A stretch of 64,000 bases of DNA, from the NCBI RefSeq assembly GCF_001693755.1, contig NZ_LYST01000039.1, forward strand, positions 62,001 through 126,000, in the 5' to 3' direction. Source of the stretch: Gilliamella sp. wkB171 (lineage in GTDB: Bacteria; Pseudomonadota; Gammaproteobacteria; Enterobacterales; Orbaceae). The translations under genes were made by a program, and so were the position numbers. Below, in pieces: positions 42,263 to 50,688 of the stretch. The stretch's first letter is position 1; every line of letters starts with the position of its first letter. The notes below the pieces were generated by a model. That model did not search any database, was not told where the DNA came from, and saw nothing but the letters and a program-made list of their open reading frames with translations.

Positions 42263-43243
42263 ATGCCCGTTAATTTTTTTAAATTACCTTTATTGACGAT
42301 ATTATTTTTTCTGCTAATTAACGTTATTTTGCTAACAGGTTATTATTGTTTTTTTGACATTAGCCTGTTTTTTTCACCAACCATCGGACAGGGATCGTTT
42401 TATTCGATAGGGAGTAATGTTCTTTTAACGCATTTCTTAATTCAACTACCCAATTTATTATTTATTTTTATTATCTCAACACTGCTTTTATCTCGACAAG
42501 CTATTTATCAAATCCAATGGCGTAATGTCAGTTTTATTTTCATTATTTCAATTGTCATCACATTGATAACGATGGTTAGTCAATACTACCTAAATCAATA
42601 TATTGATCCTCTCTTAAATCAAAGTTCAGCATCGATACTGTCTATATTAACCTCTTGGATAGTGGTTATAGTATTGATGATAATTGACTATATTGTGATA
42701 GCAATGATGTTTTATTTAGGCATGAAATTATTTAAAAAATACCTTATTTATACCCATTATTGCCTAACTAGGCAGCAAAATAAAAATTTACATTTATCAT
42801 TGTATATCGCGCTATTTAATTGGTACTTTTTAACTTTGTTATTTAGTTTTTTTTACATACAGAACGTTTTTTATACGTCTTTGCTTGCTAATTTGGTTAG
42901 AACTGGCATATTGTTTACTTTTCTAATTGTAGTAAATACATTAGGTTATTTTGCCTTACGTAACTGTTTTACGGCTGTAAAAACCCATTTAGAAATAAAA
43001 AAACTGATCTTGAGTTCTTTATGGGCTTTTTTAATTCTTTGTTGTTTAACGTTAGCATTGATGTTTGGATTAATCCGATTGATGGAATTAATCTCAAATG
43101 AATATATATCAGACACCATAGAAATAGGTTTGTGGTACCTATTTCTTTTGATTTTGTGCGTGTTAAGTTGTTTTGTCACTAGAGTATCGGTAAAACTGTT
43201 TTTTAAACAGCGTCAACTTGTCAATCAACCCAATTTTGTATGA
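42263..43243 (+). CDS. Polytopic membrane protein of unknown function
   Basis: A 326-residue protein with about seven or eight long hydrophobic helices, starting with FFKLPLLTILFFLLINVILL and ending in a basic tail (KLFFKQRQ). I do not recognise a family. It sits between ygiF and glnE, which are adjacent in E. coli, with gaps of 39 and 9 bases, so it is probably co-transcribed with glnE. Confidence 0.7.
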   Translation: MPVNFFKLPLLTILFFLLINVILLTGYYCFFDISLFFSPTIGQGSFYSIGSNVLLTHFLIQLPNLLFIFIISTLLLSRQAIYQIQWRNVSFIFIISIVITLITMVSQYYLNQYIDPLLNQSSASILSILTSWIVVIVLMIIDYIVIAMMFYLGMKLFKKYLIYTHYCLTRQQNKNLHLSLYIALFNWYFLTLLFSFFYIQNVFYTSLLANLVRTGILFTFLIVVNTLGYFALRNCFTAVKTHLEIKKLILSSLWAFLILCCLTLALMFGLIRLMELISNEYISDTIEIGLWYLFLLILCVLSCFVTRVSVKLFFKQRQLVNQPNFV

Positions 43244-46324: not shown

Positions 46325-48487
46325 ATGGCAACGATCAAAGATATCGCTAAGATGGCAGGTGTATCACATGGTACGGTGTCAAATGTACTAAATGGTCGCG
46401 GTAATGTCAGTGTCAAAAAAATTAAACTTGTTGAGCAAGCCGCTCAAGCATTAGGGTATCAACTAAACTTACAAGCAAAGTTTTTAAAACAAGGAACGAC
46501 CAAAACGATTTCGGTCTTATTACCCAATATTACCTCTGAACAGTACGCCGATTTATATGATGGGCTTTTTAGTTATTTAAATCGATTAGGTTATGGACTA
46601 ACCTTATATTTAACCTATGATTCAAAAGAGTTTGAATTACAACTCATCCAAGAAATTGCAGTAAAACGCGATTATGCGGTAATTGTGGTAAGCGCTTTAG
46701 ATAGTGCACAAAGTTATTACCAAACGTTAAAAATAGACAAAGAAAAAATTATTTTTGTTTATCGTAAACCAAAATCCGCGCTGAAATTCATATCATTAGA
46801 TTTTGAAAAAGCTGGGCATGATATTGCGTGCGAAATGATAAAAAATAATTATCGGCATATCGGCTTATTTAGTAACTCTGACCAACATACTCATTCGCAA
46901 TCTTTCAAAAAAGGTTTACAGCAAACCTTTAAGCAACAAAACTATCATGTCGATATAAATTGCATTGCTTCAATGCCTTCAAATAGTACCTATAATTTAT
47001 CATTCAATTTTTTTGCAAATGAGCAAGTAGGGTACGATGCCATCATTACCATGGATATGGAGCGCGCACATTTTGTTCGAAATGCTAATTATTTTGGAAG
47101 TTTACAACCTTGCCCACCAATTTATACATTAACGAAGAATAGTTTTTTTTATGAAAACCATTTTTATCAATATCATATGAATTATGGGATATTAAGTCGG
47201 CAAATTGCCAATCTAATTGAGGACCAGCCAATTACTTTACCTGAAAATAAAGGATTTACCTTACTTCCTGATTCATTGCCCCACGACAAGACTAACTATG
47301 GTGATGAAATTAATTTTTTAATTCTTCCCAGCCCGTCAACCCAAGCCGTAGCCAAATTATTACCTCACTTTAGCAAAATAAGTGGTATTAACGTTAATTT
47401 AATAGTTAAACCTTTTGATGAGATTTATCACATACTTAATCATGTAGAACATCATAAATATCTGGATATTATTCGGATTGATATGGCAGGGCTACCTTGG
47501 TTTGCCCCTTCAATATTTAAGCCATTATCTGAGCTGCAAATTGATTTATCTCACATCTTTGCACGCTATACACCTGAAATAATAGACCGTTTTAGTTATG
47601 TGAATAATATCGCTTATGCCTTGCCGTTCGATCCAAGTGTGCAGATGCTTTTTTACCGTAAAGATCTTTTTGATGATCCTTTAATTAAACGCGCTTATTT
47701 TGAACAGTTTCGTCAACAACTTGATGTACCGACTAATTTTGCTGATTTTAATCAAATATCGGCTTTTTTTAATCGACAGCAAAATGGGGAGTCGCAAGTA
47801 GAATTTGGTAGTTGTTTTACCTCAGGTAATGATGAACTTATCGCTTCCGAGTTCTTAGTCCGCTATTATGCACAAGGTGGAAAATTATTTAATCATTCCC
47901 AACCACAGCTCAATACTGTTATAGCACTTACAACGTTAACTCAATTACACTCTTTTATTAAACTAGCTAAAAATATAAATGCCACTTGGTGGCAAGATTC
48001 AGTGAAATTATTTGAACAAGGCAAGCTAGCGATGCTAATTGTTTATATGAATTTGTTTAGTTGTATAAATCATCGTAACATTTTGCCGTTGGTGGGGTAT
48101 GCTAAAGTGCCGGGTAATAAGCCTTTATTTGGTGGTGGTTCTTTAGGTGTATCAAAGTACAGTCAAAAAGATGCAGCAATAAAATCTTTTTTTGAGTGGC
48201 TATATTCACCAGAAATTAGCGAACAAATTGCGTTGTTGGGTGGGGCAACGGCACAAAACTCTATTTTTCAAAATCAACGCATTATCAATAGTTATCCGTG
48301 GCTTACTGTGGCTCAGCAGCAGTACGCTAACGGTATTCGTGAAAATAGTATAAAAGGTAAGGCTGTGAATTTAAGGTGTGTTGAAAACATCATAGGCAAT
48401 TATTTATCAAAGTGGATGACTAAGCAATACGATTCAAAACAAGTTATTGATTTAATTAATGATGAGATAAAAAAACAATATTGCTAA
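46325..48487 (+). CDS. LacI-family regulator fused to a solute-binding-protein-like domain
   Basis: A 720-residue chimera. Residues 1-58 form a LacI helix-turn-helix and hinge (IKDIAKMAGVSHGTVSNVLNG, then LQAKFLKQG). Residues about 60-320 are a LacI-type periplasmic-binding sensor (TISVLLPNITSEQYADLYDG, FISLDFEKAGHDIA). Residues about 325-720 resemble an ABC sugar-binding protein of family 1: YALPFDPSVQMLFYRKDLF, WWQDSVKLFEQGKLAMLI, LFGGGSLGVSKYSQKDAAIKSFFEWL. There is no signal peptide, so the whole protein should be cytoplasmic. It converges on a nucleoside permease gene whose operon carries a LacI-type palindrome. LacI regulators are normally about 340 residues. Confidence 0.85.
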   Translation: MATIKDIAKMAGVSHGTVSNVLNGRGNVSVKKIKLVEQAAQALGYQLNLQAKFLKQGTTKTISVLLPNITSEQYADLYDGLFSYLNRLGYGLTLYLTYDSKEFELQLIQEIAVKRDYAVIVVSALDSAQSYYQTLKIDKEKIIFVYRKPKSALKFISLDFEKAGHDIACEMIKNNYRHIGLFSNSDQHTHSQSFKKGLQQTFKQQNYHVDINCIASMPSNSTYNLSFNFFANEQVGYDAIITMDMERAHFVRNANYFGSLQPCPPIYTLTKNSFFYENHFYQYHMNYGILSRQIANLIEDQPITLPENKGFTLLPDSLPHDKTNYGDEINFLILPSPSTQAVAKLLPHFSKISGINVNLIVKPFDEIYHILNHVEHHKYLDIIRIDMAGLPWFAPSIFKPLSELQIDLSHIFARYTPEIIDRFSYVNNIAYALPFDPSVQMLFYRKDLFDDPLIKRAYFEQFRQQLDVPTNFADFNQISAFFNRQQNGESQVEFGSCFTSGNDELIASEFLVRYYAQGGKLFNHSQPQLNTVIALTTLTQLHSFIKLAKNINATWWQDSVKLFEQGKLAMLIVYMNLFSCINHRNILPLVGYAKVPGNKPLFGGGSLGVSKYSQKDAAIKSFFEWLYSPEISEQIALLGGATAQNSIFQNQRIINSYPWLTVAQQQYANGIRENSIKGKAVNLRCVENIIGNYLSKWMTKQYDSKQVIDLINDEIKKQYC

Positions 48488-48534: not shown

Positions 48535-49761
48535 TTATTTTGATTTTTCTTTTGGGGCTATAATTACATCTTTATCTTTGAACAATAACCAAAAACCAAT
48601 AGCAACAATGGCTGCCACTACAGCAGGATAGATCCAAAACTCTTGCCATTGTGGCCCAGCATTTGGCAGCGTTTTTTCGGTAACCACGCGATTGTTGATA
48701 AATCCACAAACCGATGCGGCCATAAATACGCCAAAGCCATTAGAAACAATAAAACGTAATCCTTGCGCTTGTGCTTTGATTTCTGGTCCTGCCTTTTTAT
48801 CTACATAAATATCACCAGCGGTAAAGAAGAAGTCCCAACAAACACCTTGTAAAAGTAATGTGCCAATAATGTAAAAGAACATCGTACTACCGTCGGCAGT
48901 CGCGGCTAACGATAACATCAAACTACGAATAACCCAGCAAATTGCGCCAAATAAAATGATTTTTTTGAAACCAAAACGACCTAATAAGAAAGATAAAAGG
49001 AACATAAATAAAACTTCAGTGGCGATAGCTATTTGCATCATTGATGCAGGCTCTAATCCTAAAACAGGTAGATAAACCGGTAAATAAGCACTATAAGCTG
49101 TTTTAGTTATCATTAAGATAAACGTTGATAACATAAAAATAGTAAAGTATTTGTCTTTAAATAGTGATAATGCATCTAAACACATCGCATCGCGCAAAGA
49201 GAATTTTTTATTTTTGCTAGTTGGTGGTGTATTAGGTAAAGTGAAACAATAAATGCCATAAACCACAGATGCACCTGAAGCAAGTAAAAATGAATTGATA
49301 GAACTAGAAAAACCCGTGTAACCAAGAATTAACCCTACAATCATAAAGCCGATGGTACCAAATACACGAATAATCGGGAACCAGCGCACACCATCTATAT
49401 GTCTAAAGCTAACGCTATTAGCTAATGCCGTTGTTGGATAGAATAATAAACCAACGATGAAAATCATGATTAAAAAGCCAGCAATATTGCCGTTTTCAAC
49501 AAAGTTAGGAATCAAGAATAATACAACGGCATTAAGAATATGTAATATGCCCATCACTTTTTGTGATGCGATAAATCTATCCGCAATCATGCCAATGAAT
49601 AACGGTGAAATAATGGTTGCGATACCTAATACAGAGTAAGTTGATCCAACAATCTCTTTTAATCCATAAGCAGCGAGTACAGCCCCAATAACCATATTCC
49701 ATGCACCTTGCACAAAATATTGTAAAAACATCATTACCAGTAGACGTGGTATTTTAAACAT
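48535..49761 (-). CDS. Nucleoside:H+ symporter-family MFS transporter
   Basis: A 408-residue inner-membrane protein with about twelve helices, resembling the NupG/XapB/YegT nucleoside permeases. It begins RLLVMMFLQYFVQGAWNMVIG and has conserved GIATIISPLFIGMIADRF, NSVSFRHID and FGTIGFM segments. It is co-oriented with a PhnP-like hydrolase whose stop lies 13 bases upstream of its start, so both form an operon. Substrate choice among nucleosides is not visible. Confidence 0.88.
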   Translation of the reverse strand: MFKIPRLLVMMFLQYFVQGAWNMVIGAVLAAYGLKEIVGSTYSVLGIATIISPLFIGMIADRFIASQKVMGILHILNAVVLFLIPNFVENGNIAGFLIMIFIVGLLFYPTTALANSVSFRHIDGVRWFPIIRVFGTIGFMIVGLILGYTGFSSSINSFLLASGASVVYGIYCFTLPNTPPTSKNKKFSLRDAMCLDALSLFKDKYFTIFMLSTFILMITKTAYSAYLPVYLPVLGLEPASMMQIAIATEVLFMFLLSFLLGRFGFKKIILFGAICWVIRSLMLSLAATADGSTMFFYIIGTLLLQGVCWDFFFTAGDIYVDKKAGPEIKAQAQGLRFIVSNGFGVFMAASVCGFINNRVVTEKTLPNAGPQWQEFWIYPAVVAAIVAIGFWLLFKDKDVIIAPKEKSK

Positions 49762-49774
49762 AAAAAACTCCGTA

Positions 49775-50602
49775 TTAAATTGTTTTTATTAAGCCGTCAT
49801 AAGCGACTTCTATATTATGAGGTTTGAATATTTCCACTAATTCATCGTGCATAAAGCCACTACTATGTGAATGATGCGACGTTATTAGTTGTGTTTTATC
49901 ATGGAAAATATTTTCACTAATCATGCGTTGTTGTGCGGCGATCACAGTTTCAATGCTCATATGATTATTGGTGCGGTCGTTCTGTTTATAGCCATAGGTA
50001 CATTCAAAGATAGCTAAATCAATTTTTTTGCCGCTATTTTTAAGCCATTGCCAAGTGAGTTCAGGAAAATAGCCTGAATCATGACCATGAAGAATAGTTT
50101 TCCCATCTTTTTCAATTAAGTAGATGAAACAAAATTCCCATTTTGCATGATTCGATAGTAAAGGCGTTACATGATAGCCAGCAGAGCTGGTAATAGTCTG
50201 ATACGGGACCAATAAATTAAAAACAAAGCGTTCAGGGCTGTAACCTGGTAGTACATGTAAGCACCCATTTATTGCAATATCATTGCCGTAGATATAAAGC
50301 GGGTGATCAATGTTAAAGCCATAATCTACCATACGGCTAAATAGATCACCGACATTAAAATGGTCTGGATGGGTATGCGTAAATAACAAATCTTTGATTT
50401 TAGTTACATCAATATTTTCTCGCATGACTTGGTAACTAAATTCGGGTGCAAAGTCAATTTGCATGATTTCATCAATGATAACGGAGCTTCGACTCCTGAT
50501 ATTTTTACCTTTTTGTATGCGGGTTTTCTCGCAGATTTCACATTTACAAAAAGGATTTGGGATACCTTCCGAGGCTGCTGTACCCAAAAACTGTAGTTTC
50601 AC
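49775..50602 (-). CDS. Metallo-beta-lactamase-fold hydrolase, PhnP-like
   Basis: A 275-residue hydrolase. The metal motif HTHPDH (LLFTHTHPDHFN), a GHDSGYF segment and C-terminal SHHSHSSG histidines mark an MBL fold. An N-terminal CKCEIC matches the extra zinc site of PhnP, the phosphoribosyl cyclic phosphodiesterase. No phosphonate genes are nearby; the partner is a nucleoside permease, so a ribose- or nucleotide-derived substrate is a fair guess. The start has GGAG about 7 bases upstream. Confidence 0.8.
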   Translation of the reverse strand: MKLQFLGTAASEGIPNPFCKCEICEKTRIQKGKNIRSRSSVIIDEIMQIDFAPEFSYQVMRENIDVTKIKDLLFTHTHPDHFNVGDLFSRMVDYGFNIDHPLYIYGNDIAINGCLHVLPGYSPERFVFNLLVPYQTITSSAGYHVTPLLSNHAKWEFCFIYLIEKDGKTILHGHDSGYFPELTWQWLKNSGKKIDLAIFECTYGYKQNDRTNNHMSIETVIAAQQRMISENIFHDKTQLITSHHSHSSGFMHDELVEIFKPHNIEVAYDGLIKTI

Positions 50603-50664: not shown

Positions 50665-50688
50665 TAAAATTGGAACGTTCCAATTTTA
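50665..50688. promoter_or_regulatory. Perfect 24-bp palindrome, candidate LacI-type operator
   Basis: A perfect palindrome centred on CG with core TTGGAACGTTCCAA, flanked by AAAA/TTTT. It lies 63 bases upstream of the PhnP-like hydrolase start. Symmetric sites with a central CG are typical of LacI-family operators. The LacI-type chimera at 46325-48487 is the only such regulator in the window and is adjacent to this operon, so it is the obvious candidate binder. Confidence 0.65.

Follow-up and report, generated by a model that had tools for sequence, protein, structure and literature searches.

A LacI-type regulator joined to a complete cytosolic solute-binding domain is predicted to control a hydrolase–transporter operon in Gilliamella

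The window, a 64,000-nucleotide stretch of the genome of Gilliamella sp. wkB171, contains a gene on the plus strand (46325..48487, stop included in the coordinates) encoding a protein of 720 amino acids, in which a LacI-type DNA-binding regulator is joined to a complete type-1 solute-binding protein (SBP) without a signal peptide. We consider this protein, with fair probability, to be a repressor of an operon for phosphodiester uptake and cleavage that uses its SBP domain to detect, in the cytosol, a substrate or product of the operon. In the mechanism that we propose, the cytoplasmic LacI-type repressor, carrying the non-secreted SBP as an attached effector-sensing module, would bind the palindrome ATTGGAACGTTCCAAT at 50669-50684 and repress the operon encoding an MFS importer together with a PhnP-like phosphodiesterase. 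Once a product of the operon, or its substrate (a glycerol or sugar phosphate or a small phosphodiester), builds up in the cytosol, the SBP cleft would close, and the LacI core would pass this closure on to the hinge and the helix-turn-helix (HTH), releasing the repressor from the DNA. Computation shows the fusion with its fold and conservation, as well as the predicted operator and regulon. Gilliamella is a genus of bee-gut symbionts.

The gene forms a single open frame in the window, and all of its domains are encoded on the plus strand. The LacI HTH (GVSHGTVSNVLNGRGNVS; 46331..46462, residues 3-46) stands right at the N-terminus and matched PF00356 in Pfam (E 1.4e-13; 50.9 bits, against a curated cut-off of 27). 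It is followed by the hinge helix (46463..46498, residues 47-58), in which A51 and L54 are invariant in 38 aligned sequences; we take L54 to be the minor-groove leucine of the LacI family. The LacI-type core, or sensor/dimer domain (46499..47263, residues 59-313), was delimited from the alignment and the AlphaFold2 model. Its alignment with LacI proteins, CcpA included, extends to about residue 250 (CcpA profile positions 3-251, E 3.3e-26); Peripla_BP matches in Pfam, at residues 60-216, were sub-threshold only, and no NCBIfam LacI equivalog scored above its own cut-off for the fusion protein. A flexible linker (47264..47302, residues 314-326; pLDDT below 50 at 314-324) leads to the SBP domain (47303..48484, residues 327-720), which was assigned from PF01547 (SBP_bac_1; residues 347-630, E 5.8e-13, 49.9 bits against a curated cut-off of 26) and from structure superposition.

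The AlphaFold2 model, calculated from the 38-sequence alignment (mean pLDDT 86.3, pTM 0.78), contained a complete SBP fold. Residues 323-719 superposed on the solved SBP 5iai with a Z of 43.2 and an rmsd of 2.3 Å over 376 residues, and the SBP domain matched SmoF (7ofy) with a Z of 38.9; its sequence identity to solved SBPs is about 18%. The closest folds were sugar or polyol binders (5iai, MalE3, and SmoF), while Mtb UgpB with glycerophosphocholine (6r1b) was at Foldseek rank 50. The structure matches listed all fell on the SBP domain, which takes up the whole list; that the LacI core is unrepresented there does not count against its presence. The initial annotation had described a 720-residue frame with a LacI HTH, a LacI sensor, and an SBP-like C-terminus without a signal peptide; Pfam, the alignment, and AlphaFold2 confirmed this architecture, and residues 327-720 indeed match a solute-binding family, both by PF01547 and by the 5iai fold. 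A Pfam search found neither SgrR_N nor SBP_bac_5 in the fusion at E up to 1, and no equivalent of the UgpB-like Trp clamp (as in PMC12718374) was found in the SBP domain by sequence. We rejected the idea that the SBP domain was copied from a neighbouring ABC binding protein, as the best neighbour scored just 23 bits with the SBP profile. No ABC permease lies beside the fusion in the window.

Convergent with the fusion gene in the window is a two-gene operon on the minus strand. Its first gene (49775..50602) encodes a PhnP-like hydrolase of the metallo-beta-lactamase fold with a THTHPDH motif, and its second (48535..49761) an MFS transporter of the Nuc_H_symport family (PF03825, E 4.4e-75). The hydrolase matched TIGR03307, the PhnP model, with an E of 3.6e-20 and 72.4 bits against an equivalog cut-off of 272; it also matched the PhnP structure 3g1p (E 1.3e-11, residues 3-271) and lay above the Pfam cut-off for PF12706. 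By its sequence, it is a relative of PhnP and not PhnP itself.

The predicted operator ATTGGAACGTTCCAAT is a perfect palindrome with a central CG, located in the promoter of the hydrolase–MFS operon, and is the sole exact site in the window's genome. The other operator-like sites of this genome carry two mismatches and occur at about background frequency, and we therefore rejected a wider regulon there. With two mismatches at most, ATTGGAACGTTCCAAT or ATTGACACGTTCCAAT was present in 60 of 155 upstream regions of genes belonging to the module (the fusion and its recurrent partners), compared with 0.15 expected from shuffled regions, and the motif was found in 60 of 175 module upstream regions versus 1 of 110 non-module regions, counts that include related sequences and shared divergent promoters. 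Counterparts of the motif were observed in module promoters from Gilliamella to Clostridium and Treponema. These cross-phylum sites fit the recognition helix of the fusion, whose HTH is near-invariant from Clostridium to Gilliamella. Four same-genus genomes that lack the fusion were searched for the site, and the two whose matches were listed, G002 and G012, had two-mismatch sites only.

The strongest operator evidence comes from Orbus-type genomes. In three of these, the fusion and the hydrolase are separated by 39 kb (G083), 69 kb (G237), and 1.16 Mb (G186), and each genome has one exact operator, which precedes the hydrolase by about 66-74 bp. The position of the exact site near the hydrolase, despite the distant fusion, indicates that the site accompanies the operon it controls and that the regulator acts in trans. 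The E. coli plasmids have an exact operator between the fusion and the hydrolase, and in Mannheimia and Rodentibacter the motif lies upstream of a gene for a GDPD-family phosphodiesterase (GDPD). In the latter two genera, we also noted paired operators 33-34 bp apart. The half-site of the ATTGACACGTTCCAAT form holds TTGACA, the -35 consensus hexamer, in the direction towards the operon. Because the predicted operator overlaps the promoter and contains this hexamer in its ATTGACACGTTCCAAT form, we infer repression, by promoter occlusion, rather than activation. As computed, the DNA target and the regulon of the fusion are well supported, with binding predicted.

Conservation differs sharply among the parts of the protein. 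Across the 38 members, columns conserved at 90% or more accounted for 54% of the HTH, 5% and 2% of the LacI core parts, and 13% of the SBP domain (53 of 393 columns; the LacI core has 9 of 267). Conservation is thus highest in the HTH and hinge and lowest in the LacI core. The positions of the PurR ligand residues R196 (Arg) and D275 (Asp), assigned by sequence alignment only, are not conserved in the LacI core, and the Pasteurellaceae fusions have a shortened core with one segment missing. This conservation pattern, the unconserved PurR positions, and the Pasteurellaceae deletion favour sensing by the SBP domain, with the core serving as dimer scaffold and relay. The SBP domain is therefore likely to be the effector sensor, and would bind the ligand itself. 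A decaying LacI core was also considered and rejected: among Orbaceae, dN/dS is about 0.13 for the core and the SBP domain alike, at a dS near saturation, which indicates purifying selection on the core.

The initial annotation had offered two readings: a cytoplasmic transcription factor with two ligand pockets, possibly integrating two sugars, or a domesticated binding protein used as an oligomer or effector module. The analysis supports a transcription factor in the cytoplasm that uses a domesticated SBP as its effector module. Pockets for two sugars seem less likely: the core is variable and its PurR/LacI contacts are unconserved by alignment, yet it is under purifying selection and may have a ligand of its own. 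A broader form of the two-ligand idea, in which the LacI core and the SBP domain each bind an effector (a substrate and a product, or a sugar and a phosphodiester, for example) and the operon is induced by the combination only, seems unlikely, but draws on several observations. Both domains are present and well predicted, they are under similar purifying selection, and Y74, Y78, E104, Y283, and Y287 of the core are near-invariant. These features must be set against the ligand-contact positions that are unconserved by alignment, and against a core that is the most variable part and partly deleted in Pasteurellaceae. It is improbable that the SBP domain is a ligand-free module for oligomerisation or protein interaction, with the LacI core remaining the sensor. 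An intracellular location does take away the transport role, and the low identity to solved SBPs would fit such a loss of function; nevertheless, the fold is complete, its conservation exceeds that of the LacI core, the clusters PFDPS (434-438), WW (555-556), and GGG (603-605) are invariant, and none of the full-length members examined has dropped the domain. That the protein is a solute-binding protein exported or held at the surface, with an incidental HTH or a mis-called start, is very improbable and was rejected: copies of the fusion on E. coli plasmids are publicly annotated as 'extracellular solute-binding protein', but no signal peptide or lipobox was found, the protein begins with MATIKDIAK, which is the HTH, at a start kept in orthologues, and the highly conserved HTH and hinge are matched by a predicted operator conserved in module promoters. 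Sensing by the SBP domain of a cytosolic repressor thus remains our preferred reading.

A first search for relatives recovered the fusion as an uninterrupted frame, at 52-96% identity, in 12 of the 35 genomes from the same genus and in one from a different genus of the family. Of 394 genomes belonging to the order, 18 contained it, as did 23 of 250 from Enterocloster's family (Lachnospiraceae), some with two or three copies, and 7 of 245 Paenibacillaceae genomes. Within Orbaceae and Enterobacterales, a scan with one genome per species recovered Gilliamella, Orbus, Frischella, Zophobihabitans, Budvicia, Pragia, Serratia, Raoultella, and Pluralibacter; further occurrences were in Aggregatibacter, Haemophilus, Mannheimia, Rodentibacter, Paenibacillus, Bacillus, Clostridium, Lachnospiraceae, and Treponema. 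All 38 aligned members contain PF01547 and 37 contain PF00356, the exception being a start-truncated ORF with its called start after the HTH. The probability that two adjacent genes were merged by a frameshift or by an assembly error, the latter considered near 47300 in the initial annotation, is negligible, as the join is conserved in single-frame orthologues of 30-96% identity from many independent assemblies, including several one-contig genomes. No unfused pair of LacI and SBP genes was found among the loci examined. A locus in a Chloroflexi MAG (L106) was considered as an ancestral state with separate genes and rejected: it contains a frameshift, and the SBP continues in a different frame from inside the LacI gene.

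In a tree of 57 sequences, the Gammaproteobacteria, with Paenibacillus chitinolyticus placed in their midst, stood beside GDPD-type loci of Bacillus and Paenibacillus, nested within Bacillota sequences; the root was placed at the midpoint and does not prove the direction. A second LacI–SBP subfamily (100/100 support; L193-L207) adjoins ribose-type (CUT2) ABC importers, accompanied in some loci by a rhamnose-mutarotase-like or other sugar gene. Its position beside ribose-type importers suggests that fusions of this kind are a sensor design of general use. The cassette is also carried by E. coli plasmids, with high coverage in 43 of 5,426 complete genomes. It comprises the genes for MgtC, the MFS transporter, the metallo-hydrolase, and the fusion together with the operator (L208, NZ_CP100527.1). 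The E. coli plasmids carrying it come from poultry, among other sources, and IS elements lie downstream of the fusion in the plasmid cassette.

The hydrolase and MFS genes adjoin the fusion in all 13 of the first relatives. They do so in Zophobihabitans as well, where the rest of the surroundings is unshared. Exactly the 12 of 35 Gilliamella genomes having the fusion also have the hydrolase, a coincidence that may reflect one gain or loss of a linked block. The same pair of genes occurs in Serratia, Raoultella, Aggregatibacter, Haemophilus, some Paenibacillus, and the E. coli plasmids, in many cases together with an MgtC-family gene. In Bacillota and Treponema, the partners are a GDPD and an ABC importer of the PhnT or CUT1 type; the Bacillota importers showed low similarity to curated PhnS/PhnT models, below the equivalog cut-offs. 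In Mannheimia and Rodentibacter, the MFS gene is accompanied by GalT, a GDPD, and a UhpT-type antiporter, and the PhnP-like gene is missing. The importer and the hydrolase are therefore swapped between lineages, while the theme of import and phosphodiester cleavage stays.

Other genes were observed in or near these loci. The module repeatedly includes a gene of the MgtC family, in Enterobacterales, Pasteurellaceae, Bacillota, and the E. coli plasmids (L042, L076, L091, L095, L102, L208, and others); the window's copy lacks this gene. GalT is included in the Pasteurellaceae modules L084, L088, L089, L090, and L091. In a Clostridium locus, two related ORFs of a repeated type (L099:7726-8322 and L099:6211-7140) lie between the fusion and the GDPD, and their coiled C-terminus recalls transposase-like proteins. 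Elsewhere in the window, a membrane protein of 326 amino acids (42263-43243, plus strand), with no Pfam or NCBIfam match, is encoded between a CYTH-like gene and glnE; this slot is hypervariable among Gilliamella genomes, holding various orphan membrane or large proteins, or nothing.

The ligand class is the least secure step of the proposed mechanism. A phosphodiester or a glycerol or sugar phosphate is suggested by the two importer families, by the GDPD partners, and by the relatedness of the hydrolase to PhnP, and we offer a small molecule of this kind as a lead. Members of both importer families, GpxB (PhnT family) and UgpB (CUT1), bind glycerol-1- and glycerol-3-phosphate (PMC12718374). 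The gene context thus points to organophosphates or phosphodiesters rather than plain sugars, at least in this subfamily, and the GalT, GDPD, and UhpT-type antiporter of the Pasteurellaceae modules hint at a galactose- or hexose-linked phosphodiester. On the other side, the predicted structure of the SBP domain, whose nearest folds are sugar and polyol binders, does not appear to point to phosphodiesters, and the MFS transporter belongs to a family of nucleoside symporters, which is a counter-indication.

We see an even chance that these proteins constitute a distinct and widespread class of one-component regulators, LacI repressors whose effector pocket has been taken over by a complete cytosolic SBP, perhaps as a general device that re-uses SBPs for new ligands, here a phosphodiester. 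If this is true, LacI repressors can gain new ligands by capturing a whole binding protein, and the fusion would provide a ready-made two-domain sensor for biosensor design. It would also explain why a protein annotated as an 'extracellular solute-binding protein' resembles a cytoplasmic repressor. The conserved operator makes the regulator model directly testable, and the module proposes a phosphodiester uptake route that has kept its regulator and the DNA site of the regulator, although different lineages use different importers and hydrolases.

Compared with the LacI/GalR repressors (CcpA, PurR, Cra, and RbsR), the fusion shares the N-terminal HTH, the hinge leucine, the periplasmic-binding-like core, a local operon target, and a palindromic operator with a central CG, which is predicted here. 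Those repressors stop at about residue 330-350, whereas the fusion adds a whole type-1 SBP and is thus distinguished by an added rather than a missing domain; in addition, the canonical ligand residues of the core are not conserved in the alignment. The SBP domain shares its family profile and complete two-lobe fold with the UgpB/SmoF/MalE-type SBPs (SBP_bac_1) of CUT1 importers. In contrast to these, the fusion lacks a signal peptide, is joined to a DNA-binding protein, and has no ABC permease beside it in the window. With respect to the GpxB (PhnT family) and UgpB (CUT1) uptake systems, the Bacillota importers beside the fusion are from the same ABC families and adjoin a GDPD, but they are only distantly PhnS/PhnT-like, with a predicted substrate, and the window has an MFS transporter instead.

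The closest parallel in design is SgrR of E. coli, which consists of a DNA-binding domain and a C-terminal solute-binding domain homologous to SBPs, and senses sugar-phosphate stress. Activation of SgrR is attributed to the binding of a small molecule at the C-terminus (PMC7786190). Both proteins use a cytosolic SBP-like domain on an HTH as the effector sensor, which for the fusion is our proposal; they differ in their HTH and SBP families, and SgrR has no LacI core between its two parts. We found no description of LacI–SBP fusions in the open-licence literature, an absence that carries little weight, as subscription papers lay outside the search. The parts of the protein are known families and the design principle is known from SgrR; their combination as a LacI–SBP regulator is, as far as we found, new.
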